A DNA stretch of 35,779 bases, taken from NCBI GenBank assembly GCA_001790445.1, contig MGCQ01000002.1, positions 1-35,779 on the forward strand. Direction: 5' to 3'. The DNA is from Candidatus Saccharibacteria bacterium RIFCSPHIGHO2_12_FULL_41_12 (lineage in GTDB: Bacteria; Patescibacteriota; Saccharimonadia; Saccharimonadales; 2-12-FULL-41-12). Each line of letters begins with the position of its first letter. Position 1 is the stretch's first letter. The translations under genes and the position numbers were made by a program. The notes beneath the pieces are model-generated. The model did no database searches. It was not told the origin of the DNA and was given only the letters and a program-made list of their open reading frames with translations. Shown piece after piece: positions 1-15,503 of this stretch.

Positions 1-28
1 ATACTTTCTTGTGCTAACAAGAAAGTAT
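1..28. repeat. Hairpin module A (ACTTTCTTGT inverted repeat) flanking structured element copy 1
   Basis: ATACTTTCTTGT-GCTA-ACAAGAAAGTAT followed by GCAAAGAAA; the same module is found inverted at 7161-7188, and variants occur at 15343-15373 and about 35720-35760. Confidence 0.75.
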
Positions 29-40
29 GCAAAGAAATAG

Positions 41-448
41 CAGGCTATTGAAGTAACATTATTGAAATATCTCTTCAATCAACCCAGTTTTTCCGGGACT
101 CCCTTTGGTCGGGCTAAAGCCTGGTCCTCAAAACATGGCGTTGCTTGAATAGATATTTCATCAGTTATTCAAGGGCCTGGAGCTTAAGTGGCTAGATTAT
201 TAATAATATTTTCTACGAAAATATACAGATTTAGAATCAGGCCTTGAGCAGACCTGAGAGATTTCGTCGAGATTACAACTATCAGACGAGGACTGTCTGA
301 CCCTACGTCGCCGAAGGCTATGGAGGGGAGTTCCGAGACCGTGGCTTCTGGCTAAGGTCAGGCTTAGCCTGCCTTTGAGCCAGAAGAGACCATGTCAGGC
401 TGTTGTGATCCTTGACTAGTAGTTTCATAAAGTCTGCTCAATCGCCTG
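41..448 (+). ncRNA. Candidate large structured RNA, copy 1
   Basis: Stem TGAAATATCTCTTCAA (63-78)/TTGAATAGATATTTCA (145-160); outer stem TTGAA(48-52)/TTCAA with TAAC/GTTA; apical motif GACTCCCTTTGGTCGGGCTAAAGCCTGGTCCTCAAAACA (97-135); hairpin ATATTTTC-TAC-GAAAATAT (206-224); closing stem CAGGC..GAGCAGAC (238-253)/GTCTGCTC..GCCTG (432-448). Same architecture as 6807-7148 with compensatory substitutions. Strand inferred by analogy only. Confidence 0.6.
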
Positions 449-460
449 TCGGTTTTTGGG

Positions 461-510
461 TTCCGTTTTGCCGATTCAAAATGGAATAAAAGCAGGCTTG
501 CTTGCAAGCC
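461..510. repeat. Hairpin module B plus GGCTTGCTTGCAAGCC hairpin; possible purA terminator on minus strand
   Basis: TTCCGTTTTG/CAAAATGGAA (461-486) and GGCTTG/CAAGCC (495-510), followed on the minus strand by TGCTTTTATT; inverted equivalent of 6735-6787. Confidence 0.6.
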
Positions 511-524
511 GGGAAAGAGATACT

Positions 525-1754
525 TTAATCTTTTTTGATGACTTGGGTGCGGTTTGGACCGACGCCTATGCGGAATATTGGGGTGGCTAATTTTTGTTCT
601 ATGAATTTAACGTAATTTTGAGCATTTTCGGGGAGCTTGGAAAACTCTGTAATTAACGATATATCTTCTGCCCACGATGGCGAATTTTCATATTCTGGGG
701 AAGAATGGGCAAGTGCATCTGCAGAAACTGGGGCGATATCACCGACACCTTTATAACTTGTGCATACTTGTATTTTATTTCCAAATCTCGGGACGCAATC
801 TAGTTTTGTAATTGCAATGTGGGTTATGCCGTTAACCATGATGGCTCTTTTGATTTGCGGTAAGTCGAGATGCCCCATGCGCCGGGCGCGCCCTGTGGTT
901 GTGCCAAATTCTCCGTCCACTTCTGTTTGCTTACCACGAAGATTATTTAGCTGTGTTTCATCTGTTATTTCCGTGACGAATGGTCCACCGCCGACATGTG
1001 ACTGAGTGGCTTTGACTACGCCGATAACTTTGTTGATATATTTAGCGGGGATGCCGAGCCCTGTGCAAACGCCTCCGACAGTTGTTGTTGAGGAGGTAGT
1101 AAAAGGGTACATACCGTGATCAATGTCGAGCAAAAAGGCTTGAGCCCCTTCTGCTAGCACTTTTTTGCCACTACTTAGTTGTTGATTAACGTAAATTACG
1201 GTGTCAGTAGAAAAATCTGCTAATTGTTTGATCGCATTTATATACTCTTGATTGCTGTTTGTTTTTTCCCTGAGGAGTTCAGGGTTTGCTATGGCTTGCC
1301 CGAGGGTTAATCCAGCCCTTAGATACTTATCGGCAGATACTTGAGCAATGCCGGAGCTGGTGCTGCCTTGCGCGCTCGTAGAATTTTCTCTGGCTTTGTC
1401 GCTCACGATGTGGCTTGGCAAAATCAAGTGTGCGCTAGTACTTATTTTGAGATTTTCTGGAGTTACTTTGACGCCTTTTGACTTTAAATCATTAAATTCT
1501 TGGACAAGTTTGACGGGGTCTATCAGACAGCCATTGCCAATTACATTAACAACGCCAGAGTGAGAGATTCCTGATGGCACTGTGTGTAGGTCTAGCTCCG
1601 TCCCATCAGGTAAAACAACAGTGTGGCCAGCGTTTGGGCCACCGTTAAACCGTGCGACGATATCATGACTGCTGGCTATTTCATCAACAAATCTACCCTT
1701 ACCCTCGTCTCCTCTTTGAAGCCCGAGTACAACCGTGACCGATCCTTTATTCAT
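525..1754 (-). CDS. purA: Adenylosuccinate synthetase
   Basis: MNKGSVTVVLGLQRGDEGKGRFVDEIA...RFNGGPNAGHT, typical PurA N-terminus with GDEGKG loop. Confidence 0.96.
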   Translation of the reverse strand: MNKGSVTVVLGLQRGDEGKGRFVDEIASSHDIVARFNGGPNAGHTVVLPDGTELDLHTVPSGISHSGVVNVIGNGCLIDPVKLVQEFNDLKSKGVKVTPENLKISTSAHLILPSHIVSDKARENSTSAQGSTSSGIAQVSADKYLRAGLTLGQAIANPELLREKTNSNQEYINAIKQLADFSTDTVIYVNQQLSSGKKVLAEGAQAFLLDIDHGMYPFTTSSTTTVGGVCTGLGIPAKYINKVIGVVKATQSHVGGGPFVTEITDETQLNNLRGKQTEVDGEFGTTTGRARRMGHLDLPQIKRAIMVNGITHIAITKLDCVPRFGNKIQVCTSYKGVGDIAPVSADALAHSSPEYENSPSWAEDISLITEFSKLPENAQNYVKFIEQKLATPIFRIGVGPNRTQVIKKD

Positions 1755-1760
1755 AATCTA

Positions 1761-1766
1761 ATTATA
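1761..1766 (-). promoter_or_regulatory. -10 box for purA, leaderless-type spacing
   Basis: Minus strand TATAAT followed by 6 nt then ATG. Confidence 0.55.
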
Positions 1767-1821
1767 CCATCCCAATGTATCAATACGTATCAACAAATAA
1801 CAAATATCAACCCCAAAATCT

Positions 1822-1833
1822 TCACGATCGTGA
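1822..1833. promoter_or_regulatory. Palindrome TCACGATCGTGA, candidate operator upstream of purA
   Basis: Perfect 12-bp palindrome; 10-bp core CACGATCGTG is repeated at 2379-2388. Confidence 0.5.
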
Positions 1834-1866
1834 GAAATATGGGGCAATATATATTCAATTAATGTA

Positions 1867-2361
1867 TTAATTTAATTCGTTGCATTCATATATTTTAACG
1901 TAGTCTTCCAGATTCGATTCTTTGATCTCCGCCAAGAGATATTCTCGAAAGTCATATTTTGTTGTCCAAACGCTTTTCTGAGCTTGTTCAAAATACAACT
2001 CTCTTAGTATTTGTCTGAGTCTGTCGCGTTTGTATCTTTGAGTTTCCGGGATGTCAAATGTGATCATAAGTTTTGCTTCGCCGGCTAGTTTTTTTGGTTC
2101 ATAGATTTGTGCTTTGTTTTTACCCTTTTGGGTTAAGCGAGGAATCCCTGCGTGGTCAATGGCAATTAAGCCTTGGGCTATCATTCTATAGTATGCGTTT
2201 TTTAATGATTTTTCCTTTTTTCTTGATATTTTTGCGAGATCTTTGAAAAATTCTCTGCGAGCAAAACTGAATTTCAAGTTTGGCTTGCTATACGGGATGA
2301 GAGCTTTTAATAAATACACAGTGGTAGAGTTAGGCAAATTGTCACTTCTTTTATTATTCAT
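1867..2361 (-). CDS. PaaX-like / Cas2-fold transcriptional regulator-like protein
   Basis: N-terminal winged-helix-like region, C-terminal KLMITFDIPETQRYKRDRLRQILRELYFEQAQKSVWTTKYDF, resembling PaaX C-terminal/Cas2 ferredoxin fold. Confidence 0.65.
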   Translation of the reverse strand: MNNKRSDNLPNSTTVYLLKALIPYSKPNLKFSFARREFFKDLAKISRKKEKSLKNAYYRMIAQGLIAIDHAGIPRLTQKGKNKAQIYEPKKLAGEAKLMITFDIPETQRYKRDRLRQILRELYFEQAQKSVWTTKYDFREYLLAEIKESNLEDYVKIYECNELN

Positions 2362-2378
2362 ATTAGCATCATTTTACT

Positions 2379-2388
2379 CACGATCGTG
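2379..2388. promoter_or_regulatory. Palindrome CACGATCGTG just upstream of the -10 of the PaaX/Cas2-like gene
   Basis: Minus strand reads CACGATCGTG-AG-TAAAAT-9nt-ATG. Confidence 0.5.
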
Positions 2389-2464
2389 TAATATTTGCAA
2401 CTAATTTAGATTGATAAATGGATAACTTATGTGGTCAGTAGAGCGTTTAAATTTTTAATAGACT

Positions 2465-4342
2465 TTATTCCCATTCTGTTGTGCCTGGAGGTTTGCTGGT
2501 TAGGTCTATTAAAACTTGGCTGATGTAATCGAGTTTAAGAAGTTGTTGAACGCAGCTGTTTATTGTTTTTGCGGGGATGCCGAGGCCAGGCAAGGCGGCT
2601 TCTCCAGTCATAAAGTCGGGTGTAATAAATGGTCGGAGCGCAATTGTCCTTTGTCCAGATTTACCATAAGACGTTGGAGCTAAAATAACTGGCATCTGGT
2701 TGATCCCAAGCTTTGAACCATCTTTGTTGATAATGTCTCTGACGATATGGTCTGCTTTTCTTAGCTGCGTTGTAGTGCGATGGTTGAGATATGTGATCAC
2801 TGGTTCCTGAGCTGGCGTCTTATTAATATAGCCGTATGTAACACGGTTTATATTAATCTTTGCATTTGTAATTTTACGAGATAGATCGGACAACCTATGC
2901 CAATCGGGATTATTGCATCTAAGCACAGCGGCGTAGGCATATGTTCGGCCATCTCCTTGTACGCCGACTGTTTGAATTGGTAAAACATCGCCTTCAACAC
3001 CTGTGTTTTTCAAAATCTTGTCCAAGTTATCTTGGCTTTTTTCAAGTTTTACTCGGTTGCCCATTGTGCCATCAGAACAAATGATACGAATTGCCAATCC
3101 TGGGCCAGGGAACGGATGGCGATTGACCATTTTGTCGGGCAAACCCAGGTCACGACCTAAAGATCGAACTTGATCTTTATATAAAAACTTTAGTGGCTCA
3201 ACAACAAGAGATTCATCGCGGAGTTTTCTAATGCCGTCGGTGTCATTGTGATGAGTCTTAATAGTATCTAGCCCTGTGCCGGCGAGGCTAGATCCGCTCT
3301 CGATTATATCGGGACGTAGTGTGCCTTGGGCAAGAACAGTGTCAGCTGGCAAACTCTTGTTATGGATTATATCTCCCCGGATACTGGCAAAACAATCTCC
3401 AATGATTTTGCGTTTTTCTTGCGGATCAGCAATGTATTTGAGCTGTTTGGTGGTCTTGCCGTGGATTAGAGTACTAGCGTTAAAAAATTTATCAGCTGCA
3501 CGAATAACATTGACTTTAACTCCCAAGTTTTTCAAAGCTAGAGCTACAGCGGTGCTCTCGCCGGCGCGCATGAATCCATTGTCAATGTGGTAAGCGTGAA
3601 TTTTTTCAGGGCTGGGCAATGTTTTGGCGATCAGTACAGCCATTACTGTAGAATCAACGCCACCACTTAGGTACAAGATGACATGTTTGTCGCCGATAAC
3701 TTCCTTGATCTCTTCCATGCAAGTTTTAAGACGATTCTCTGCAGAAAAATCCTTGACGACACCGGCAATGTCAAACAAGAAGTTATTGAAAATATTTTTG
3801 CCTCTTGGCGTGTTGTGAACTTCTGGGTGAAATTGCAAGCCGTAGATTAGCTTTTTGTCATTTGCAATCGCTGATATAAAGTTTTTATGACCTCCAATAA
3901 TCTCAAAGCCCGGTGGTAATTTATCGACGCTGTCTCCATGGCTCATCCAAACTTGCTGAGAGGAATCTATGTTTTTGAACAGGGGACTTGTAGAAAATTC
4001 TGTCTGGGTTTTGCCATCCTCACGAAGTCCAGAATCAGAAACCGTGCCACCCATATATTTGGCAATTAATTGCATACCGTAACAGATGCCAAGTACGGGT
4101 TTGCCAGATTCAAAAATTTTAGGGTCGCACTGCTTTGCTCCAGGTTCGTTAATACTGTCTGGTCCGCCAGAAATAATCAATGCCCTGTATCTATTTAAAT
4201 TATTTACAGGAGTGTTTATTGGCAATATATCGCAATCCACCTCCAGCTCATGGACAACTCGGTCTATTTGCCCACAAAATTGTGATCCTGCGTCAAGTAT
4301 TGCTATTTGCTTATGTTTTGCCATAGAGTTTTTTAAAGTCAC
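2465..4342 (-). CDS. guaA: GMP synthase (glutamine-hydrolysing), long human-type form; start probably at 4324
   Basis: GATase (GICYGMQL), PP-loop (LSGGVDSTV), HPFPGPGLAIR; large insertion before VGVQGDGRTYAY; C-terminus DLTSKPPGTTEWE. Likely start MAKHKQIAILDAGSQ. Confidence 0.96.
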   Translation of the reverse strand: MTLKNSMAKHKQIAILDAGSQFCGQIDRVVHELEVDCDILPINTPVNNLNRYRALIISGGPDSINEPGAKQCDPKIFESGKPVLGICYGMQLIAKYMGGTVSDSGLREDGKTQTEFSTSPLFKNIDSSQQVWMSHGDSVDKLPPGFEIIGGHKNFISAIANDKKLIYGLQFHPEVHNTPRGKNIFNNFLFDIAGVVKDFSAENRLKTCMEEIKEVIGDKHVILYLSGGVDSTVMAVLIAKTLPSPEKIHAYHIDNGFMRAGESTAVALALKNLGVKVNVIRAADKFFNASTLIHGKTTKQLKYIADPQEKRKIIGDCFASIRGDIIHNKSLPADTVLAQGTLRPDIIESGSSLAGTGLDTIKTHHNDTDGIRKLRDESLVVEPLKFLYKDQVRSLGRDLGLPDKMVNRHPFPGPGLAIRIICSDGTMGNRVKLEKSQDNLDKILKNTGVEGDVLPIQTVGVQGDGRTYAYAAVLRCNNPDWHRLSDLSRKITNAKININRVTYGYINKTPAQEPVITYLNHRTTTQLRKADHIVRDIINKDGSKLGINQMPVILAPTSYGKSGQRTIALRPFITPDFMTGEAALPGLGIPAKTINSCVQQLLKLDYISQVLIDLTSKPPGTTEWE

Positions 4343-5699
4343 TTTTCATATAATTCTTGATTATTATTTGGGTCTTTTTTGACGAAATCCCAAAGTAATT
4401 TTGCTCAGGTTTGCTGATTATTGATTTCTCAAAATCAGAAAATTTATCCCAGTAGTTTTTGGCTTCTTCGTCTAAGCTGATTACGTCTACAAGATCTTGC
4501 TCAAGATCAAGAGCAGAGTGTGCTAATTTTTTGGCCTTTTCGTGAGCTTGGGTATGACCATATTTTTCAAAAAGTAGATAAAGAGGCTCAGCAGCAATTG
4601 CACCAGACGACATCTCTAAGTTTTTTTGCATTGCCGTTTCGTCTACCTCGATTTTTGACATGATAGTGTCTAGTCTCTTTGCCATCAATGCCACACAGGC
4701 TGGAATGATTGGATAAAATCTTGCAGAAGCGGAATCTGTCAGGTCACGTTGGTGCTCGCTGGATATATTTAAGTTTGCGTTGAGCAATTGTCCAGTTACT
4801 TGCTTGGACATGCCGATAACATTTTCGAAGTTCCACGGATTACGCTTGTGCGCCATAGTTGATGAACCTGTTTGGCCTTCTTCGAATTTTTCGCGAACTT
4901 CATTGATCTCTGTTCTTTGTAGATTTCTCATGTCGTGGGAAAGATTGGCCATAATGCCACTGGTTATGGTCATTTCATCAAGTAAGCGGATCATTCCCTC
5001 TGCAGGGACAATCTGCGTAGAAGATTCAGAGGGTGATAGCCCGATCTTTGCCAAAATATCTTTTTCAAACTTGATTGGATCGTCAATAAAAATACTTAAA
5101 GCGTTGTATGCTCCGACTGCTCCGGAGAATTTACCACAAAGAGACTGGCTGAGTTCATGAACGGCTTCCCCGGACTGCCGAAGTCTGGAAATGTACTCAC
5201 CAAGGGCAAAGCCAAAGGTTATCGGGACTGCATGCTGTCCGTGCGTGCGCCCGATTTGGGGCTGGTCTTTGTACTTATCTGCCAAATCTACTAATGTTTG
5301 GATAAGCGAATTGAGCCGAGGCAACACTAGTTCTTGAGTAGCAACCTTAAACTGCAATGCACTGGCGCTTGATACAATATCGTACGATGTTGCACCAAAA
5401 TGCACATACGGCTTTGCTTGGTCGCTAACTTCCGTCTTGATGGTATTGACGATAGCTTTAATGTCATGCTTGGTGATTAACTCTTCTTTTATAACGTTTT
5501 CTATATCAATTTTTTTGGTAGCATCTGTTATTTCTTGGGCAATATCTTTTGAGCAAACGCCAAAGTCGGACAGAGTTTGAGCCAGCACAGCTTCAATTTT
5601 GGCCTGATATTGAATCCGAGTTTTTTCGGATAAGTATTTGCTGATATCGGGGTCAAAGTACCTACCGTCTAGTGGGTCTATTGAATTATAGTCGTTCAA
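4311..5699 (-). CDS. purB: Adenylosuccinate lyase
   Basis: MNDYNSIDPLDGRY..., signature GQTGSSTMAHKRNPWNFENV. Confidence 0.95.
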   Translation of the reverse strand: MNDYNSIDPLDGRYFDPDISKYLSEKTRIQYQAKIEAVLAQTLSDFGVCSKDIAQEITDATKKIDIENVIKEELITKHDIKAIVNTIKTEVSDQAKPYVHFGATSYDIVSSASALQFKVATQELVLPRLNSLIQTLVDLADKYKDQPQIGRTHGQHAVPITFGFALGEYISRLRQSGEAVHELSQSLCGKFSGAVGAYNALSIFIDDPIKFEKDILAKIGLSPSESSTQIVPAEGMIRLLDEMTITSGIMANLSHDMRNLQRTEINEVREKFEEGQTGSSTMAHKRNPWNFENVIGMSKQVTGQLLNANLNISSEHQRDLTDSASARFYPIIPACVALMAKRLDTIMSKIEVDETAMQKNLEMSSGAIAAEPLYLLFEKYGHTQAHEKAKKLAHSALDLEQDLVDVISLDEEAKNYWDKFSDFEKSIISKPEQNYFGISSKKTQIIIKNYMKSDFKKLYGKT

Positions 5700-5700
5700 T

Positions 5701-6639
5701 TTATATTGCCTTTAATGCGCTATTAATATTCGCCCCGATTCTTTCTAGAGGGCTGTCATCGTTATTTGGTATAAATTTCTCACCAATTAGTTTTTCGTAA
5801 AGCTCGACGTAGCGATCCGATATCATGTCAATTACCTCGTCATCTATCATTGGCGCAAATTCACCGGCCTGATTAGAAAATCCTTTGTCAAGTAGCCATT
5901 CTCGCAAGAATTCTTTCGATAATTGGACAGGTTTTTGATCTGATGATCCTGACAAATAGGCGTCATAGCTGTCTTTGTAAAAATATCTTGACGAGTCTGG
6001 AGTATGGATTTCGTCGATAAGGCACACCTGATTATTCAAAAAGCCAAATTCGTATTTTGTATCTGCGAGTATAAGACCGCGTTTGTTGGCCATCTCTCTG
6101 CCTCGGGCAAAAAGTTTTTGGGCGTAGTTATAGATTCTATATAAATGCTCTTTGTCTACAAGTTTCTGATCAATAATTTCTTGGTAGGTGATAGGGTCGT
6201 CTGTCTCAGACTTTGTTGTTGGTGTGATGATTGGGACATCAAAGACATGGTATTCGCTTAGTCCATCTGGTAATACCACACCAGAAACTGTTTTGATGCC
6301 GTGTTCATATGCTCTCCATGCGCTGCCCAGTAGGCTGCCGCGGACTATGACTTCAATCATTATTGGTTTGCATTTATAACCGATCGATACATTTGGGTCT
6401 GGTGCAGAAATCAGCCAGTTGGGTGCAACGTCCTTTGTTTCTTCTAGAAAATGTGCAGCGATTTGATTAAGGACTTGGCCTTTGTGTGGGATTAGTTCTG
6501 GGAATTTGTAGTCAAAAGCAGAGATTCTATCGGTGGCTACGCAAACAATCTTATTACCGATGTAATAAACGTCTCTCACCTTGCCGTGATAGAGATTTGT
6601 TTGACCCTTAAATGAAAAATCTGTGGTCGCAATGTTCAT
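5701..6639 (-). CDS. purC: Phosphoribosylaminoimidazole-succinocarboxamide synthase (SAICAR synthetase)
   Basis: YHGKVRDVYYIG..ATDRISAFDY; IEVIVRGSLLGSAWRAY; LILADTKYEFG. Confidence 0.95.
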   Translation of the reverse strand: MNIATTDFSFKGQTNLYHGKVRDVYYIGNKIVCVATDRISAFDYKFPELIPHKGQVLNQIAAHFLEETKDVAPNWLISAPDPNVSIGYKCKPIMIEVIVRGSLLGSAWRAYEHGIKTVSGVVLPDGLSEYHVFDVPIITPTTKSETDDPITYQEIIDQKLVDKEHLYRIYNYAQKLFARGREMANKRGLILADTKYEFGFLNNQVCLIDEIHTPDSSRYFYKDSYDAYLSGSSDQKPVQLSKEFLREWLLDKGFSNQAGEFAPMIDDEVIDMISDRYVELYEKLIGEKFIPNNDDSPLERIGANINSALKAI

Positions 6640-6734
6640 TATCTACATCATACAGGATATTGTTTGAAAATTCGATTCAAATTTATGTAAATTTTTAGCT
6701 TCATTGCGCTAAAGGTTGGGAACAACCTTTCATC

Positions 6735-6787
6735 GGCTTGCAAACAAGCCGTATTTTGTTCCATTTTTGTGTCGACAAAAACGGAAC
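6735..6787. repeat. Hairpin module B (GGCTTG..CAAGCC plus GTTCCATTTTTGT..ACAAAAACGGAAC)
   Basis: Hairpins 6735-6750 and 6758-6787; inverted relative to 461-510. Confidence 0.7.
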
Positions 6788-6806
6788 CCAAAAAACGCTC
6801 GTGCTA

Positions 6807-7148
6807 TTGAACTAACATTATTGAAATATCTCTTCAACCAACCCAGTTTTTCCGGGACTCCCTTTGGTCGGGTCTGGGAGACCTGGTCCTCAAAACATGG
6901 CGTTGTTTGAAGAGATATTTCATCAGTTATTCAAGGGCCTGAAACAAAGCAGTCTAAAGTCATAATTAATAATATTTCCATAGGAAATATACACTCTGCT
7001 TCTGGTCAGGCCTTGAGCAGACCTGAGAGATTTCGTCAAAGATACAACTATAAAGACGAGGACTGTTTGAGTCCCGCCGTGGCGGGATGAGTTCCGCAGG
7101 CAGTTGTATCTTTTGACAAGAAATCCCATCAAGTCTGTTCATAGCCTG
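6807..7148 (+). ncRNA. Candidate large structured RNA, copy 2
   Basis: Perfect 16-bp stem TGAAATATCTCTTCAA (6822-6837)/TTGAAGAGATATTTCA (6907-6922); TTGAA/TTCAA outer stem; apical motif 6856-6897; hairpin ATATTTCC-ATA-GGAAATAT; closing stem CAGGC..GAGCAGAC/GTCTGTTC..GCCTG; long stem GATTTCGTCAAAGATACAACT / AGTTGTATCTTTTGACAAGAAATC. Confidence 0.62.
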
Positions 7149-7160
7149 TTGTTTCTTTGC

Positions 7161-7188
7161 ATACTTTCTTGTCAACACAAGAAAGTAT
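7161..7188. repeat. Hairpin module A
   Basis: ATACTTTCTTGT-CAAC-ACAAGAAAGTAT, 12-bp perfect stem. Confidence 0.75.
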
Positions 7189-7252
7189 GGTGATTGAAAG
7201 CCTGAAAGGCTTTAATCGCAACGCAGCTTTGTGTAATTTCCCCAATTTGTAT

Positions 7253-7258
7253 TACAAT
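7253..7258 (+). promoter_or_regulatory. -10 box for purE, leaderless-type spacing
   Basis: TACAAT, 7 nt before ATG at 7266; TTGTGT 18 bp upstream. Confidence 0.45.
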
Positions 7259-7265
7259 AGATGTA

Positions 7266-7751
7266 ATGAACAACGTACAAGTCGGCATTATGATGGGTTC
7301 CAAATCAGATCTTGACATTATGGAAGGTGTAAAAAAAGTACTTGATGAATTCGGCGTAACTAGCGAACTTCGAGTCCTATCCGCACATCGTACTCCAAAA
7401 GAATGCACCCAATATGCCGGGTCAGCAAGAGATAATGGTATCAAATTGATTGTAGCTGGTGCTGGCGGATCAGCCCACTTGGCTGGTGTAGTCGCAGCTC
7501 ACACAACATTACCCGTCATCTCCATTCCTGTAAAGAGAGACAACCATGATCACGAAGCTTTGTGGTCAAACATTGCACTTCCTCCAGGAATTCCAGTTGC
7601 AACTATGCCAGAAAACGGTTCTAAAAATGCAGCCCTGCTAGCAGTTGAGATCCTAGCATTAAGCGACCCAGAACTTGCTAAAAAATACGATGAATTCCGA
7701 GCAAAACAATCCGCCAAAGTCCTCCAAGACGACGCCAGCCTTAATAGATAA
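7266..7751 (+). CDS. purE: N5-carboxyaminoimidazole ribonucleotide mutase
   Basis: VGIIMGSKSDLDIMEG..ELRVLSAHRTP; GAGGSAHLAGVVAAHTTLPVI. Confidence 0.96.
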   Translation: MNNVQVGIMMGSKSDLDIMEGVKKVLDEFGVTSELRVLSAHRTPKECTQYAGSARDNGIKLIVAGAGGSAHLAGVVAAHTTLPVISIPVKRDNHDHEALWSNIALPPGIPVATMPENGSKNAALLAVEILALSDPELAKKYDEFRAKQSAKVLQDDASLNR

Positions 7752-7830
7752 GTATCTATATTTAATATTAAAAGAATAAGTGTCTGTTTATTCTCTTGTG
7801 GTGCAAAGTTCTTGATTTGCAAGGTAAAAA

Positions 7831-8550
7831 TTATGGAACAATTTTATAAATTGGGTTAGGTGCCCATGGCCAGATATTAAATTTTTGTTCGTCGTACGAA
7901 GTTTTAGTGCTTAAAGTTCTCCCAAGGTTCTTCTCAATCTTTTTTACTATTTCTTTATTTTCGTCGTTAGTATAGTTATTATTATATGAATGTGAAATTG
8001 CCCCCGTCAGAATGTCGCATAACTGGATTATCGATAAATTCTCTGCTGGAATCTCCTGAACATGTTTAATAGTTACCCCAGTATTAGGAAGCAGTATGTT
8101 TATGTAATTGCTTAAGGAATTTTTTACTTCGCTAACTCTATTCGTATGCTCGCCACGGTGAAGCAGTATAGTCAGACGGCAATTATTGTCACAGAAGTGC
8201 TTAACTCTTCTAGTAAGGTGTACCTTTGAGAAGTTAGGTATAGCATTGCTAAAAGGTGTTCCCATATATGGTGTGGCAAGACTTTTGTAAACATTTTTGT
8301 CAACTATGAGAGCACTGAAACGCACATTATGTTTAAAGAACAAGTCAACAAATTCCAAGTACATATCTAAGATATTTACTTGTCTCTTTGAGGATTTCCA
8401 TTTTAAGGTACCCCAGCAGTTGTACTTAACTCTCAAGTCTAGGCATTCAGCATTGAATTCTCTAAGAGAACCGTTCCCAATACTTACCCAAACAGAGCCA
8501 AAAACAACATTTTGTTCTTTTTGGCTTCCAATATCACACGCCACCAGCAT
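7831..8550 (-). CDS. DUF3800-like protein (RNase H-fold-like)
   Basis: N-terminal acidic motif VACDIGSQ, GTLKWKS, and C-terminal LSIIQLCDILTGAISHSYN resemble DUF3800 motifs. Confidence 0.55.
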   Translation of the reverse strand: MLVACDIGSQKEQNVVFGSVWVSIGNGSLREFNAECLDLRVKYNCWGTLKWKSSKRQVNILDMYLEFVDLFFKHNVRFSALIVDKNVYKSLATPYMGTPFSNAIPNFSKVHLTRRVKHFCDNNCRLTILLHRGEHTNRVSEVKNSLSNYINILLPNTGVTIKHVQEIPAENLSIIQLCDILTGAISHSYNNNYTNDENKEIVKKIEKNLGRTLSTKTSYDEQKFNIWPWAPNPIYKIVP

Positions 8551-8740
8551 ATGAAAGTCGTTCTTCCACTATACTGGTAATTTTTTTGATCTTGTTAACG
8601 TAACTCTTTATTTCTTTCGGTTGTTTCTTGGACTTTTCAGCCGAAATATCAAAACTGACAACCTCATTTTCTAAGATGTCTTTTAGCACTTTTAATTCGA
8701 CTTCACTAAGCTGAAGTTCAATAATTTTATCTTTCCTCAT
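8534..8740 (-). CDS. Small helical protein, translationally coupled to the DUF3800-like gene
   Basis: 68 aa; overlaps next ORF by 17 nt; strong SD GGAGGAGGG upstream of ATG on minus strand. Confidence 0.6.
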   Translation of the reverse strand: MRKDKIIELQLSEVELKVLKDILENEVVSFDISAEKSKKQPKEIKSYVNKIKKITSIVEERLSYAGGV

Positions 8741-8849
8741 CTTAACCCTCCTCCGGATAAAGTTATTATAGCAAATTATAGTATATATACATCAGTGCTC
8801 TTAGATATTTGATGTAAGTAACGTGATAAATTGTGATAAAATGTAGTAA

Positions 8850-9971
8850 ATGACAGGGTCCGACGAATCTCAGATTACATATAAAAATTCCGGTGTCGAT
8901 TACGGAGGAGTTGATCCTGCCAAAGTTTTTGCTCAAGACATTGCTGCAACTACAGCCAGTGAACTAGAAAAATTTGACATGAAGGAAATTACAGCCAGTC
9001 GAGGTGAATCTGCCTATGTCTGGGAAGAACAAGATAGCTACAGGGCTTTAGTAATCGAAGGCCTCGGTACAAAAAACCTAGTAGCGGATGTTATGCGGGC
9101 AACAACAGGGAAAACTCATTATGATCAAATTGCCCAGGACGCGATAGCGATGATCGTAAATGATTTGATAGTAGTTGGTGCACTGCCCAATGTAGTGAAT
9201 GCGTATTTTGCTATCGGTGATGCCAAGTGGATGGAAGACAAAGAACGTGCAAATGATTTGCTCCGTGGTTGGGCAAATGCTTGCAGGATATCGGGAGCTA
9301 CATGGGGTGGTGGCGAGACGCCTCCTCTCAAAGACATTGTCGATCCGGCAACGATTGATATAGCTGGATCAGCCGTGGGGATTATTGCAGACAAGACCAA
9401 CCTGGTTTTGGGTGATAAGTTGGCAGAAGGTGATCGGATTATTCTGATCGAAAGTAGTGGGATTCATTCTAATGGTCTGACTATGACACGCAAGATCGCG
9501 GAAGGTTTGCAGGATGGTTTTGCTACTAAAATGCCTGATGGGCGGATGTTTGGTGAAGCACTTTTGACCCCAACATATATCTATGTTGATTTAGTGCGGA
9601 AACTTCAGGAAGAAAAAATAGAGATACATTATATGGTCAATATTACAGGCCATGGCTGGCGGAAATTGATGCGGGCAGATCGTGATGATTTGGCGTATAT
9701 TATCGAGCAAGTTCCAGAGTACTACACAGAATTTGATTTTATTAAAAAACAGGCCAATGCGTCTACAGAGGAAATGTATGGCAACTTCAATATGGGTGTT
9801 GGTTTCGCTATTTACGTACCAGAAAAGTATGCTGAGCAAGTTGTTGAGATAGCTAAGTCCGTAAATCTGAAGGCTTGGGATGCAGGTCATGTTGTAGCTG
9901 ATGACAAAGCAGTGAGAATCAAACCTCTTGATATTGAATTTAAATCCGACACGCTAGGAGTGCGCGGGTGA
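8850..9971 (+). CDS. purM: Phosphoribosylformylglycinamidine cyclo-ligase (AIR synthetase)
   Basis: YGGVDPAKVFAQ, VNDLIVVGALP, GGGETPPL, IESSGIHSNGLTMTRKI. Confidence 0.92.
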   Translation: MTGSDESQITYKNSGVDYGGVDPAKVFAQDIAATTASELEKFDMKEITASRGESAYVWEEQDSYRALVIEGLGTKNLVADVMRATTGKTHYDQIAQDAIAMIVNDLIVVGALPNVVNAYFAIGDAKWMEDKERANDLLRGWANACRISGATWGGGETPPLKDIVDPATIDIAGSAVGIIADKTNLVLGDKLAEGDRIILIESSGIHSNGLTMTRKIAEGLQDGFATKMPDGRMFGEALLTPTYIYVDLVRKLQEEKIEIHYMVNITGHGWRKLMRADRDDLAYIIEQVPEYYTEFDFIKKQANASTEEMYGNFNMGVGFAIYVPEKYAEQVVEIAKSVNLKAWDAGHVVADDKAVRIKPLDIEFKSDTLGVRG

Positions 9972-12900
9972 AGGTCATTGTGCGGGGCAATGCCCTCACG
10001 CCCTCCCATAAAAAAGCGCTGATCAAAAAACTTGCCGACCAAGGCGCTAATGTAACAGATATCTCTGCGCAGTATCTGCATTTTATTGACGCTAAAGGGC
10101 CAATATCAGAAGACGACCAAAAGATCTTAGAAGAATTATTTAATTACTCGGGTGAGTTCAAAGAGATTGATCACAACCAGCAATTTATAGTTGTGCCAAG
10201 ACTAGGCACAATATCCCCATGGTCATCAAAAGCCAGTGATATTATCAGAAACTCTGGAGCAAATGTTGACAGAGCAGAGCGTGGGACAGCTTACTTCGTA
10301 AAGAGCGATTCAAATATAGACCTACAGCAATTGACAGATATATTTTCTGATCGCATGAGTGAAACTATTGTCGAGAGTATTGATCAACTTCAAAACATGT
10401 TTGCTGCGGATCAACCAAAACCTTTGAAGACGTATGACATCTTAGAAAAAGGCAAACAGGCACTGGTCAAAGCAAATCATGAGCTCAATACAGGGTTATC
10501 CGATGATGACCTAGAATATTTGACGGAGGAATTCGTAGAGATCAATCATGACCCAACAGATGCAGAAATTATGATGTATGCGCAGGTCAACAACGAACAT
10601 TGTCGCCATAAAATCTTTAATGCAAAATGGGCTATTGATGGGAAAACGCAGGACGCTAGCTTGTTTAGTAAAATCAAAGATACTTATCACAAAAGCAATA
10701 AAGACATAATTTCTGCGTACACAGACAACGCAGCCATAACTCGCGGCTATGACAGTGCCCTATTTGCTCCAAAAGACGGAGTCTATGTATCAACAAACGA
10801 GCCAGTTCATTTGGTAACAAAAGTAGAGACACATAACCACCCTACAGCTATTTCTCCTGATCCAGGTGGTGCCACAGGTATCGGTGGTGAAATCCGTGAC
10901 GAGGGAGCTACAGGAATTGGCGCAAAACCAAAGATGGGGTTAACTGGTTTTACAGTTTCTAATTTGAATATTCCTCAGCTTAAACAGCCATGGGAGTCAA
11001 AACCAAATTCTCCCGATCATATCGTAAGTCCTCTTGGCATTATGATTGAAGCGCCTCTGGGTGGCGCACATTACGGTAACGAATTTGGTCGAATTAATTT
11101 GGCTGGATATTTTCGAACTTTTGAACAAAATATTGACGGTGTGAACTGGGGTTATCACAAGCCGATTATGTTGGCGGGTGGCTTGGGCAATATCAGGGGC
11201 GGTAATACACACAAAAAACAGATTGAACCTGGTGATTACATCATTGTGCTTGGTGGTCCAGCTATGCTTATTGGGCTAGGAGGTAGCTCATCTGCAAGTG
11301 TGAATTCCGGACAGTCTGACGCCGAGCTTGATTTTGCATCAGTACAAAGGGCCAATGCAGAACTTGAGAGGCGAGCCCAAGAAGTTATTTCGACTTGTGC
11401 AAATATGGGAGACGTCAATCCTATCGTGTCTATTCACGACGTTGGCGCAGGTGGTCTGTCCAACGCTTTGCCAGAACTCGTCCACGACGCAGGAGTTGGT
11501 GCCGAGTTTGAACTGCGTGATGTACTAAACGCAGAACCCGGCATGTCGCCGCTAGAAATTTGGTGTAATGAAGCCCAAGAAAGATACGTGTTGGCTATCA
11601 AAGACAAAGATCTAGCAAGCTTCAAAGAAATATGTGCAAGAGAGCGATGTACTTACTGTATAGTTGGCAAGGCTAGCGAAGAGCAAAAACTGGTAGTTAA
11701 TGATAATCTGTTCGGCAATAAGCCAGTCAATCTACCAATGGGCGTGCTGTTTAATGATAACCGCAGACAGCTATTGTCCTTTGATCGATCAGCAAAAAAG
11801 ACATATGAAAGTGACTACTCTAAATTATCTATCGAGGAGTCAGTTAAGAGAGTGATTAGTCTGCCATCAGTGGCAAGCAAGAAATTTTTGATAACTATTG
11901 GAGATAGATCCGTCGGAGGGCTGACTGTGCGGGACCAAATGGTTGGTCCATGGCAAGTACCAGTCGCAGATGTAGCGGTAACGTCCAGCACATTTGGGAG
12001 CAAAACAGGTGAGGCGATGGCGGTGGGAGAGCGAACTCCGCTAGCTATTTATGATGCTCCTGCATCTGTGCGGATGGCAGTAGCAGAGGCGATCACTAAT
12101 ATCGTAGCCACACCGATTGAATCACTGGGCAAAGTAACGTTATCGGCCAACTGGATGGCAGCAGCTCAGCAAGCCGACCAAAAAGAATGTTTACACGACG
12201 CAGTGAGTGCAGTAAGTGAATTTTGCCAAAAACTTGGCGTCACTATACCTGTCGGCAAAGATTCTCTGAGTATGAAGACAATTTGGAAAAAAGATGGCCA
12301 AGATTTTTCTGTGACTTCCCCAGTTTCAATGATAGCCAGTGGTTTTGCACCAGTGCATGATGTGTCCAGCGTGATGACGCCACAGCTAAAATCAGGAGAC
12401 ACGAAGCTTATTTTGATTGACCTGGGATTTGGTAAAAACCGACTTGGCGGATCATCACTAAGCCAAGTTTATAAATTAACAGATAGCAATTGTCCAGATA
12501 TTGAGCCAGAGAATCTAAAAAACTATTTTGAAATTATCAAGAGTTTAAATGCGGATGGCAAGATTTTGGCTTATCATGATCGGTCTGATGGTGGACTCAT
12601 CGCAACACTGACAGAAATGATGTTTGCAGGCAGAAGAGGCGTTAATGCCAATTTGGAAAAACTACCAGGCCAGACGCTAAATAAGCTATTTACAGAGGAA
12701 ATAGGTGCAGTTATTCAGGTCAAATCAAGCGAGACAGAAGGGGTCATTAGTCAAATCAAGTCAGCTGTAGGTGACTGCGTGTTTGAAATAGGCAAGGCAG
12801 TGGACACGCAAGTAATCACAATAGTTGACAGAGGATTTACATATAAAGCCAAGCGGAGTGACCTCGAAGCTCTTTGGGAGTCGGGGAGTGACGCAATCCG

Positions 12901-13783
12901 CAAACTCAGAGAAAATCCTGAGACGGTAGAGTCTGAGCAGAAGGTAGTCGCAGATGATAACAACGCAGGACTGCCGAGCAAAGTAAGCTTTGAAATTCCA
13001 AAGCCCCCTGCCCTGCCCGGTAAAAAACCAAAAGTAGCTATCTTGCGTGAGCAGGGAGTTAATGGGCAGGTAGAGATGGCAGCTGCATTTACCCATGCGG
13101 GCTTTGAAGCACACGATATCCACATGAGTGATTTAATTAGCGGCAAAAAAAGATTAGATGACTATAGCGTGTTGGCCGTCTGTGGAGGGTTCTCGTACGG
13201 AGATGTTTTGGGTGCCGGTGCTGGCTGGGCCAAGACAATTCTCAACAACAAAGATCTAAAAGAACAGTTCAAACAATTCTTTGAACGACCAGATACTTTG
13301 ACGCTGGGTGTATGTAATGGCTGCCAGATGTTGTCTCACTTAAAATCAATTATCCCCGGAGCGGAGAGCTGGCCAAGTCTACAGCAAAATACCAGTGAAC
13401 AATTTGAGGCCAGAGTTGCCAGCGTCAAGATTGAAGAGTCAAAATCCATATTGCTGGGTGGTATGGCTGGTTCTGTTTTGCCTGTACCAGTAGCTCACGG
13501 TGAGGGTAGAATGGTTTTCGTGGATAAAACAGATAATGTCAGTGCCAGATATGTTGACGACAAAGGTAAAGCCACAGAAGTCTATCCGTGGAACCCAAAT
13601 GGCTCAAATAATGGTATCACTGCAGTCACTTCAACAGATGGCAGAGCCACAATCTTAATGCCTCACCCAGAGCGAGCATTCTTGAGCATTCAAAACTCAC
13701 ATAACCCATATGACTCAACATACAGCCCCTGGTTCAAACTCTTCACCAACGCCCACGATTGGGTAAAAAGAAACGTTAAATAA
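9968..13783 (+). CDS. purL: Phosphoribosylformylglycinamidine synthase, single-chain (synthetase + glutaminase)
   Basis: NNEHCRHKIFNA, KVETHNHPTAISP, C-terminal GATase CGGFSYGDVLGAGAGWA / GVCNGCQML; 4-nt overlap with purM. Confidence 0.96.
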   Translation: MKVIVRGNALTPSHKKALIKKLADQGANVTDISAQYLHFIDAKGPISEDDQKILEELFNYSGEFKEIDHNQQFIVVPRLGTISPWSSKASDIIRNSGANVDRAERGTAYFVKSDSNIDLQQLTDIFSDRMSETIVESIDQLQNMFAADQPKPLKTYDILEKGKQALVKANHELNTGLSDDDLEYLTEEFVEINHDPTDAEIMMYAQVNNEHCRHKIFNAKWAIDGKTQDASLFSKIKDTYHKSNKDIISAYTDNAAITRGYDSALFAPKDGVYVSTNEPVHLVTKVETHNHPTAISPDPGGATGIGGEIRDEGATGIGAKPKMGLTGFTVSNLNIPQLKQPWESKPNSPDHIVSPLGIMIEAPLGGAHYGNEFGRINLAGYFRTFEQNIDGVNWGYHKPIMLAGGLGNIRGGNTHKKQIEPGDYIIVLGGPAMLIGLGGSSSASVNSGQSDAELDFASVQRANAELERRAQEVISTCANMGDVNPIVSIHDVGAGGLSNALPELVHDAGVGAEFELRDVLNAEPGMSPLEIWCNEAQERYVLAIKDKDLASFKEICARERCTYCIVGKASEEQKLVVNDNLFGNKPVNLPMGVLFNDNRRQLLSFDRSAKKTYESDYSKLSIEESVKRVISLPSVASKKFLITIGDRSVGGLTVRDQMVGPWQVPVADVAVTSSTFGSKTGEAMAVGERTPLAIYDAPASVRMAVAEAITNIVATPIESLGKVTLSANWMAAAQQADQKECLHDAVSAVSEFCQKLGVTIPVGKDSLSMKTIWKKDGQDFSVTSPVSMIASGFAPVHDVSSVMTPQLKSGDTKLILIDLGFGKNRLGGSSLSQVYKLTDSNCPDIEPENLKNYFEIIKSLNADGKILAYHDRSDGGLIATLTEMMFAGRRGVNANLEKLPGQTLNKLFTEEIGAVIQVKSSETEGVISQIKSAVGDCVFEIGKAVDTQVITIVDRGFTYKAKRSDLEALWESGSDAIRKLRENPETVESEQKVVADDNNAGLPSKVSFEIPKPPALPGKKPKVAILREQGVNGQVEMAAAFTHAGFEAHDIHMSDLISGKKRLDDYSVLAVCGGFSYGDVLGAGAGWAKTILNNKDLKEQFKQFFERPDTLTLGVCNGCQMLSHLKSIIPGAESWPSLQQNTSEQFEARVASVKIEESKSILLGGMAGSVLPVPVAHGEGRMVFVDKTDNVSARYVDDKGKATEVYPWNPNGSNNGITAVTSTDGRATILMPHPERAFLSIQNSHNPYDSTYSPWFKLFTNAHDWVKRNVK

Positions 13784-14483: not shown

Positions 14484-15038
14484 ATGAGTGGTAACGAAGA
14501 GTCAGCATCTCATGGCAAAATAGGCGAGGTTATTCATACCAAGCAACCAGATGGACGAATATTTGAAAGATATCGACGTCCGCCGGGTACAAGGTTGGTA
14601 ATCATTTCTCCTGATAAAAAGATATTGATTACCCGTGAACACAGGCAAGAAAATGACAAAATTGATTTGAGACTGCCTGGCGGGAAAGTTGTCGACAGTC
14701 TGCCAGAATTCCATAAATTGTTAGATGAAAAAGCTGATATGGTTGAGGAAGCTATAAGAGGTGCCAAAAAAGAGGCGGTTGAAGAAACAGGACTGATCGT
14801 TAATGATCTAAAGTTGCTGACTATTGCAAGAGCTGGCGCAACGGTAGAGTGGGATTTGTATTATTTTGAGGTAAGGAATTTTGGAGAACATCCAGATGGT
14901 CAACAGCTGGAACATGGCGAAGATGTAGAAGTGACGTGGATGGGTGCGCAGGAGCTCAAAGATGCAATTGAGCGAGGCGAAATGCATGAATGGCGAAGTG
15001 TCGGGGTGCTTCTAGGGTTAGTTCTGCCTAAACTTTAA
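14484..15038 (+). CDS. Nudix hydrolase
   Basis: Nudix box GAKKEAVEETGLIVNDL preceded by LRLPGGKV. Confidence 0.88.
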   Translation: MSGNEESASHGKIGEVIHTKQPDGRIFERYRRPPGTRLVIISPDKKILITREHRQENDKIDLRLPGGKVVDSLPEFHKLLDEKADMVEEAIRGAKKEAVEETGLIVNDLKLLTIARAGATVEWDLYYFEVRNFGEHPDGQQLEHGEDVEVTWMGAQELKDAIERGEMHEWRSVGVLLGLVLPKL

Positions 15039-15045
15039 GCCAGTA

Positions 15046-15146
15046 GAATCGAACAACATCTCAAAAGAGAGCGTTTCGAGCCGAGAAGATATCTTCTCGG
15101 TCTGCGTTTGCGCTCTATACTCTCTTTTGAAATATTGATTCGATTC
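15046..15146. repeat. Long near-perfect hairpin
   Basis: GAATCGAACAACATCTCAAAAGAGAG / CTCTCTTTTGAAATATTGATTCGATTC arms; internal perfect palindrome CCGAGAAGATATCTTCTCGG (15081-15100). Confidence 0.8.
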
Positions 15147-15211
15147 CATCAGGAGTTGCAGTTTTTACTCAGTGTAACTTTCAGTCCTGCAGGAGGGCTC
15201 ACAAAAAAACT

Positions 15212-15315
15212 GATGAAATATCCACAGGGCAAAGGATTGTTTTGAGGACCAGGCTTTAGCCCGACCATAGGGAGTCACGCAAAAACATCTTTTGCTATGG
15301 GGGTATTTCAATCAA
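15212..15315 (-). ncRNA. Diverged copy 3 of structured RNA (domain 1)
   Basis: Minus strand GACTCCCTATGGTCGGGCTAAAGCCTGGTCCTCAAAACA (15238-15276 region), one mismatch to 97-135; enclosing arms 15214-15237/15287-15310 still pair but with different sequence. Confidence 0.55.
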
Positions 15316-15342
15316 GTTCTTTTTGTAAGCCGAGTTTCTTTG

Positions 15343-15373
15343 CTTACTTTCTTAGTCGGTACAAGAAAGTAAG
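15343..15373. repeat. Hairpin module A variant next to copy 3
   Basis: CTTACTTTCTT / AAGAAAGTAAG, with GCAAAGAAAC adjoining on minus strand. Confidence 0.7.
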
Positions 15374-15503
15374 TACAATTGTGTTGAAGATCAAAATTTG
15401 ACCAGCGAAAAAATAAACAAAAGTAAATAGAATTTATTGAGGAGGCTTCGTCGAGAGTGATATAATGTAATCTAGATAAAGAATAATACGAAAAGGATAT
15501 ATT

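Follow-up and report, generated by a model that had tools for sequence, protein, structure and literature searches.

The window analysed here spans 35,779 nucleotides and is contig C2 of an assembly of 856 kb in 9 contigs. The gene content suggests a reduced patescibacterial genome of Saccharibacteria-like type. Clustered purine biosynthesis genes (purA, guaA, purB, purC, purE, purM and purL-like, named by eye) lie at positions 525-13783, and an open reading frame resembling the DUF3800 type, also named by eye, occupies 7831-8550. We found that the window also contains three copies of a folded element and part of a further one at its right end (Table 1). The second copy separates purC from purE within the purine gene cluster. 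Since the contig begins inside copy 1, the outer left hairpin of that copy is missing, while the short-type copy 3 has three relatives elsewhere in the genome.

Table 1. Positions of the elements and their parts in the window
Feature	Position	Strand	Remarks
Element copy 1	1-511	+	Left arm A1, right arm C
Ends of copy 1	H1 1-28; closing strand 29-45; right H2 460-486; outer hairpin 494-510
Left arm A1 of copy 1	46-172	+
Tip A of copy 1	96-135	+	Motif of the initial annotation
Central hairpin B of copy 1	174-243	+
Right arm C of copy 1, inverted	244-441	-	Tip C 288-334 (-); extra nested hairpin 335-397
Element copy 2	6700-7220	+	Flanked by purC-like (-) and purE-like (+) genes
Ends of copy 2	Left H2 6758-6786; right H1 7162-7188		End types opposite to copy 1
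Tip A of copy 2	6855-6897	+	Inner hairpin swapped (GGTCTGGGAGACC)
Tip C of copy 2	7058-7098	-	TGCGGAACTC, hairpin, TCAAACAGTCCTC
Element copy 3, short type	15030-15380	-	End hairpin H4 15344-15372; arm A4
Second long hairpin of copy 3	15046-15146		Without the motif
Tip A of copy 3	15238-15276	-
Partial element at right contig end	35685-35779	+	End hairpin H3 from 35724

The initial annotation drew attention to a near-invariant motif of 39 letters at 97-135 (+), 6856-6897 (+) and 15238-15276 (-), and we recovered it at exactly these three places. The minus-strand copy indeed carries a single mismatch (T to A), and the hairpin swap described for the 6856 copy is present, with GGTCTGGGAGACC in place of the inner hairpin GGCTAAAGCC. 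Across the genome the motif has 5 exact matches, 7 matches by a looser pattern and 19 by a tip covariance model; shuffled sequence gave 0 chance matches.

Our data place the 39-letter motif at the tip of one arm in a larger intergenic, non-coding and strongly folded DNA element. The full element measures 450-550 nt. Its left half runs from an outer hairpin through an end hairpin and a closing strand to the left arm (A1, A2 or A3) and then the central hairpin B, and its right half continues with an inverted right arm (C, or A1/A2), a closing strand, an end hairpin and an outer hairpin. Arms are approximately 130-200 nt long and half-units approximately 200 nt. The end hairpins are H1 (ATACTTTCTTGT..ACAAGAAAGTAT), H2 (GTTCC..GGAAC), H3 (TTACTTTTTCT..AGAAAAAGTAA) and a further type, H4. 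End hairpins and arms are shuffled among copies, with copy 1 reading H1-A1-B-C-H2 and copy 2 reading H2-A1-B-C-H1. The two arms of an element differ from each other in 17 of the 17 elements typed by eye, which is near chance given the left and right preferences seen.

The arms fall into at least five stem sequence classes, all of which still pair. Within the window, copies 1 and 2 share nearly one enclosing helix (class A1) while the helix of copy 3 differs (A4); the earlier statement that the enclosing helices differ but still pair holds in the wider family, across classes A1, A2, A3, A4 and C and on unrelated stems in other genomes. In the C arm, 10 of 32 pairs have changes on both sides and 96.9% of cells are paired, and 0 of 500 shuffles reached either value. 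All three pairs of the inner hairpin change on both sides in a 19-sequence tip alignment, and the tip covariation score was 0.344 compared to 0.141 for shuffled alignments, bearing in mind that related sequences may inflate covariation scores. In one alignment, the inner part of the long tip hairpin of the L139 sequence was shortened by hand.

We collected 25 A-type and 15 C-type tips. The A-type tip reads [C/G]CGGGACTCCYTNYRGTCG, hairpin, RGTCCTCA and the C-type tip reads TGCGGAACTC, hairpin, TCARACAGTCCTC, with a tip hairpin that is exchangeable among GGCTAAAGCC, GGTCTGGGAGACC, GGGACAAGCCC, GCCCCRCCTGAAGGCGGGG and others. The right-arm tip is related to the left-arm tip with its orientation inverted, and at several loci (L139, L141, L142 and L166) the A-type tip is close to an inverted C-type tip. 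In relatives, the left strand of the A arms has recurring unpaired bases, AAC[N]TGA[T]TGA against TCATCAGTT, as judged by eye. The recurrence of the tip and of these extra left-strand bases in inverted arms points to recognition at the DNA level. A pseudoknot between the tip loop and a CCYTYY strand is visible by eye in some tips. Furthermore, in three elements (335-397 of the window, L051 and L063) a hairpin of approximately 62 nt sits nested next to the tip, with both A and C tips, and looks as if one hairpin had been inserted into another.

When copy 1 was used as a BLAST query against its own genome, 60 pieces were recovered at approximately 28-30 places, with more loci contributed by two other element types. 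Overall, the genome contains approximately 25 internal elements, 7 partial elements at contig ends and approximately 40 tips. All 24 elements checked are intergenic. Of the assembly's 18 contig ends, eight fall inside elements (positions 1 and 35779 of the window, and ends of contigs C1, C6, C7 and C9), and the repeats therefore probably explain the assembly breaks. From this dispersal we infer that the element has been mobile within its own genome.

A tip model built from this genome alone matched 7 other genomes of the order. With a broader tip model, 16 of the 392 other genomes searched in the class yielded 1-3 copies each, compared to 16 copies in the genome studied here by the same search; one of the 16 genomes (G318) is marginal (E of about 1e-3), and weak tip matches were not taken as secure. 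The stems of relatives differ in sequence while pairing is kept, with approximately 21-57 Watson-Crick pairs per arm. The initial annotation had raised the alternative that the motif occurs only in recent duplications, and this does not hold because other genera and families carry it. Scanning 85,462 species genomes for the exact pattern gave three singletons, which is about chance level. The exact pattern was absent from the viral contigs searched, and plasmid and phage records gave no match. In the open-licence literature searched, we found neither the motif string nor an earlier account of repeats of this kind in these bacteria.

In two relatives the hairpins lie in frame inside genes, while the copies sampled in the own genome are intergenic. 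One relative (G376) has a C-type hairpin in frame inside a RecJ-like gene, where residues ~181-235 (approximately 55 amino acids) are extra compared to the protein of G288. In a second relative (G451), recJ carries an insertion at this position too, with a different and longer tip hairpin, and given the common position the two may be one shared insertion. The recJ open frames of G376 and G451 encode 644 and 643 amino acids, respectively, compared to 541-573 in eleven other relatives. The insert is missing in all five other relatives read at the DNA level, and since the site is empty in these relatives the hairpin is an insertion. In addition, the linker of an RNase HII-YraN-like (rnhB-yraN) fusion in G451 contains an A-type hairpin and is longer than in relatives. 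The recJ and rnhB-yraN cases are direct signs of insertion. Inspection by eye revealed no target-site duplication, either for the recJ insertion or for the ends of elements, which are not sharply defined.

We considered whether the elements could be host regulatory sequences, such as bidirectional terminators or nucleoid-protein sites, that were spread by gene conversion. The sampled copies are all intergenic and few lie between divergent genes (13 pairs of neighbours are codirectional, 7 convergent and 3 divergent), and by eye the outer hairpins look terminator-like, both of which agree with such a role. However, a copy in the window sits between divergently transcribed genes, the distribution in relatives is sporadic, and copies occur within open frames. 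We regard this explanation as a remote one.

The initial annotation suggested a ligand-binding, protein-binding or catalytic core held on replaceable stems. The structural part of this proposal was supported, since unrelated stems lie under the same tip in other genomes and the inner hairpin is exchanged without loss of pairing. As to function, our preferred reading of the conserved tip is a possible site on DNA for protein binding or recombination. For a core of ligand-binding or catalytic RNA we found no support, given the inverted core in the partner arm and the lack of a consistent strand that tolerates G-U pairs, and the dispersed, sporadic copies, found in two relatives within coding genes, argue further against it, as does the lack of an Rfam match (Rfam 15 gave none in the window at the gathering score and only chance-level matches at relaxed thresholds).

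The strand evidence bears on a broader form of this idea, in which a large structured non-coding RNA of approximately 450 nt with several arms was multiplied in the genome and the tip is its ligand- or protein-binding motif. The strong covariation in arm C and the tip is in keeping with such an RNA. A functional RNA strand would be expected to tolerate G-U pairs, and we counted 33 G-T against 12 A-C in the own C arms and 4 against 30 in the own A3 arms (counts that are not independent), biases that fit an RNA read from C to A. Furthermore, the A arms prefer to fold on one strand: with RNA and DNA parameters alike, the strand opposite the motif as initially annotated gave the stabler fold in 12 of 15 arms of relatives, in 10 of 10 own A3 arms and in 2 of 2 own A4 arms. 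However, the bias is not seen in the C arms of relatives (1 G-T against 7 A-C), own A1-C elements are mixed, and the variable T-G pair of the A tip can wobble solely on the opposite strand. Moreover, with its core in inverted arms a single RNA would hold the motif plus its complement, and an RNA sits poorly with the absence of an Rfam family, with the 1-3 sporadic copies in relatives and with copies in coding genes. We therefore consider a structured RNA unlikely. With DNA parameters, the same strand was favoured in 5 of 5 C arms of relatives, but not in own C arms. If polarity were fixed to the half-unit, a folded single strand of DNA could account for it, as with attC and REP, a likeness that is suggestive only.

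We next compared the elements to known repeat systems. Miniature inverted-repeat elements (MITEs) and pneumococcal BOX elements are likewise short, non-coding, multi-copy and inverted-repeat, with exchangeable modules, and the elements described here fall within the usual MITE description of less than ~600 nt, non-coding, multi-copy and with inverted-repeat ends (450-550 nt, hairpin ends and approximately 25 internal copies). They appear to differ in that neither a parent insertion sequence, among the two Y1 genes inspected, nor a target-site duplication, at ends that are not sharply defined, was recognised, and they have a conserved tip on changing stems. Rickettsia palindromic elements are approximately 150 bp and often lie in frame within protein genes (PMC10969869). 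By its in-frame style and similar size the recJ insertion resembles them, while the majority of the copies here lie between genes, have two arms and a conserved tip and measure 450-550 nt. Integron attC sites are imperfect hairpins with conserved extrahelical bases, a variable terminal structure and one-strand folding (PMC3053210), features that our elements appear to share. Unlike attC sites, the elements occur one by one between genes instead of in cassette arrays, are much longer and conserve the sequence of their tip.

REP sequences, whose recognition as folded single-strand DNA is documented (PMC8266576), are defined as palindromes of 20-40 bp (PMC3733652), a size that arms of approximately 130-200 nt exceed. 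As in REPINs, which are associated with the transposase TnpA-REP (RAYT), two bulged hairpins are inverted relative to each other, but the units are approximately ten times longer, have no association with a Y1 transposase and gave no positive for a known tag motif. A REPIN-type unit moved by a RAYT (Y1) transposase of the same genome would account for the inverted pair of bulged hairpins, and the genome does encode two Y1_Tnp proteins whose similarity to REP-associated tyrosine transposases falls short of NCBI's cut-off. However, half-units of approximately 200 nt contrast with 20-40 nt, and the palindromes flanking the two Y1 genes inspected differ from the element sequences. In addition, Y1_Tnp is present in 5 of 16 carriers compared to 14 of 42 non-carriers sampled, which suggests that it is not generally required. 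We consider this explanation very unlikely, and mobilisation by Y1/RAYT was rejected as a general explanation because such proteins are not commoner in carriers. The two Y1 genes (L128:1351-2004 and L129:1303-1953) are RAYT-like and each has its own near-perfect palindrome on both sides, TGTACAAG..CTTGTACA and GCGTCAGGGTCG[C/T]ACCCTGACGC. A PDB search with one of the RAYT-like proteins returned nothing.

Together, these data suggest that the motif is probably the arm tip of a non-autonomous, mobile, palindromic DNA element. Most likely the family is an undescribed set of mobile palindromic repeats and not a riboswitch or ribozyme; it is best read as a MITE/RPE/REPIN-like family with a conserved protein-recognition tip. 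The element consists of two inverted half-units flanking a central hairpin, and each half-unit joins an end hairpin and closing strand to a long imperfect hairpin arm bearing the tip. In the mechanism we propose, each arm would fold as single-stranded or cruciform DNA, and an enzyme supplied in trans would recognise the tip together with the conserved unpaired bases and move the unit. The variable helices would then act as spacers that need to pair but are free in sequence. More speculatively, the elements might belong to a single-strand-DNA hairpin mobility system of this order, with long bulged half-units, a conserved recognition tip that bears an exchangeable terminal hairpin, and an enzyme class new to palindromic repeats, a possibility that we regard as doubtful.

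Few selfish repeats are expected in very small, streamlined genomes. The family is a large and elaborate repeat in a small genome, is old enough to have spread over several families, and lies within genes in frame. The tip, conserved on changing stems, offers a ready probe for a protein that moves or binds it. Furthermore, the family suggests that DNA palindromes can yield strong covariation, a trap for RNA-discovery pipelines.

Several relatives (L159, L160, L161, L162, L166 and L174) have a long AT-rich tip hairpin with a TAGTTATTTA-like loop string. An element also follows the end of a metK-like gene both in the own genome and in a distant relative, G012 (L056 and L134), which may reflect a shared site or coincidence.
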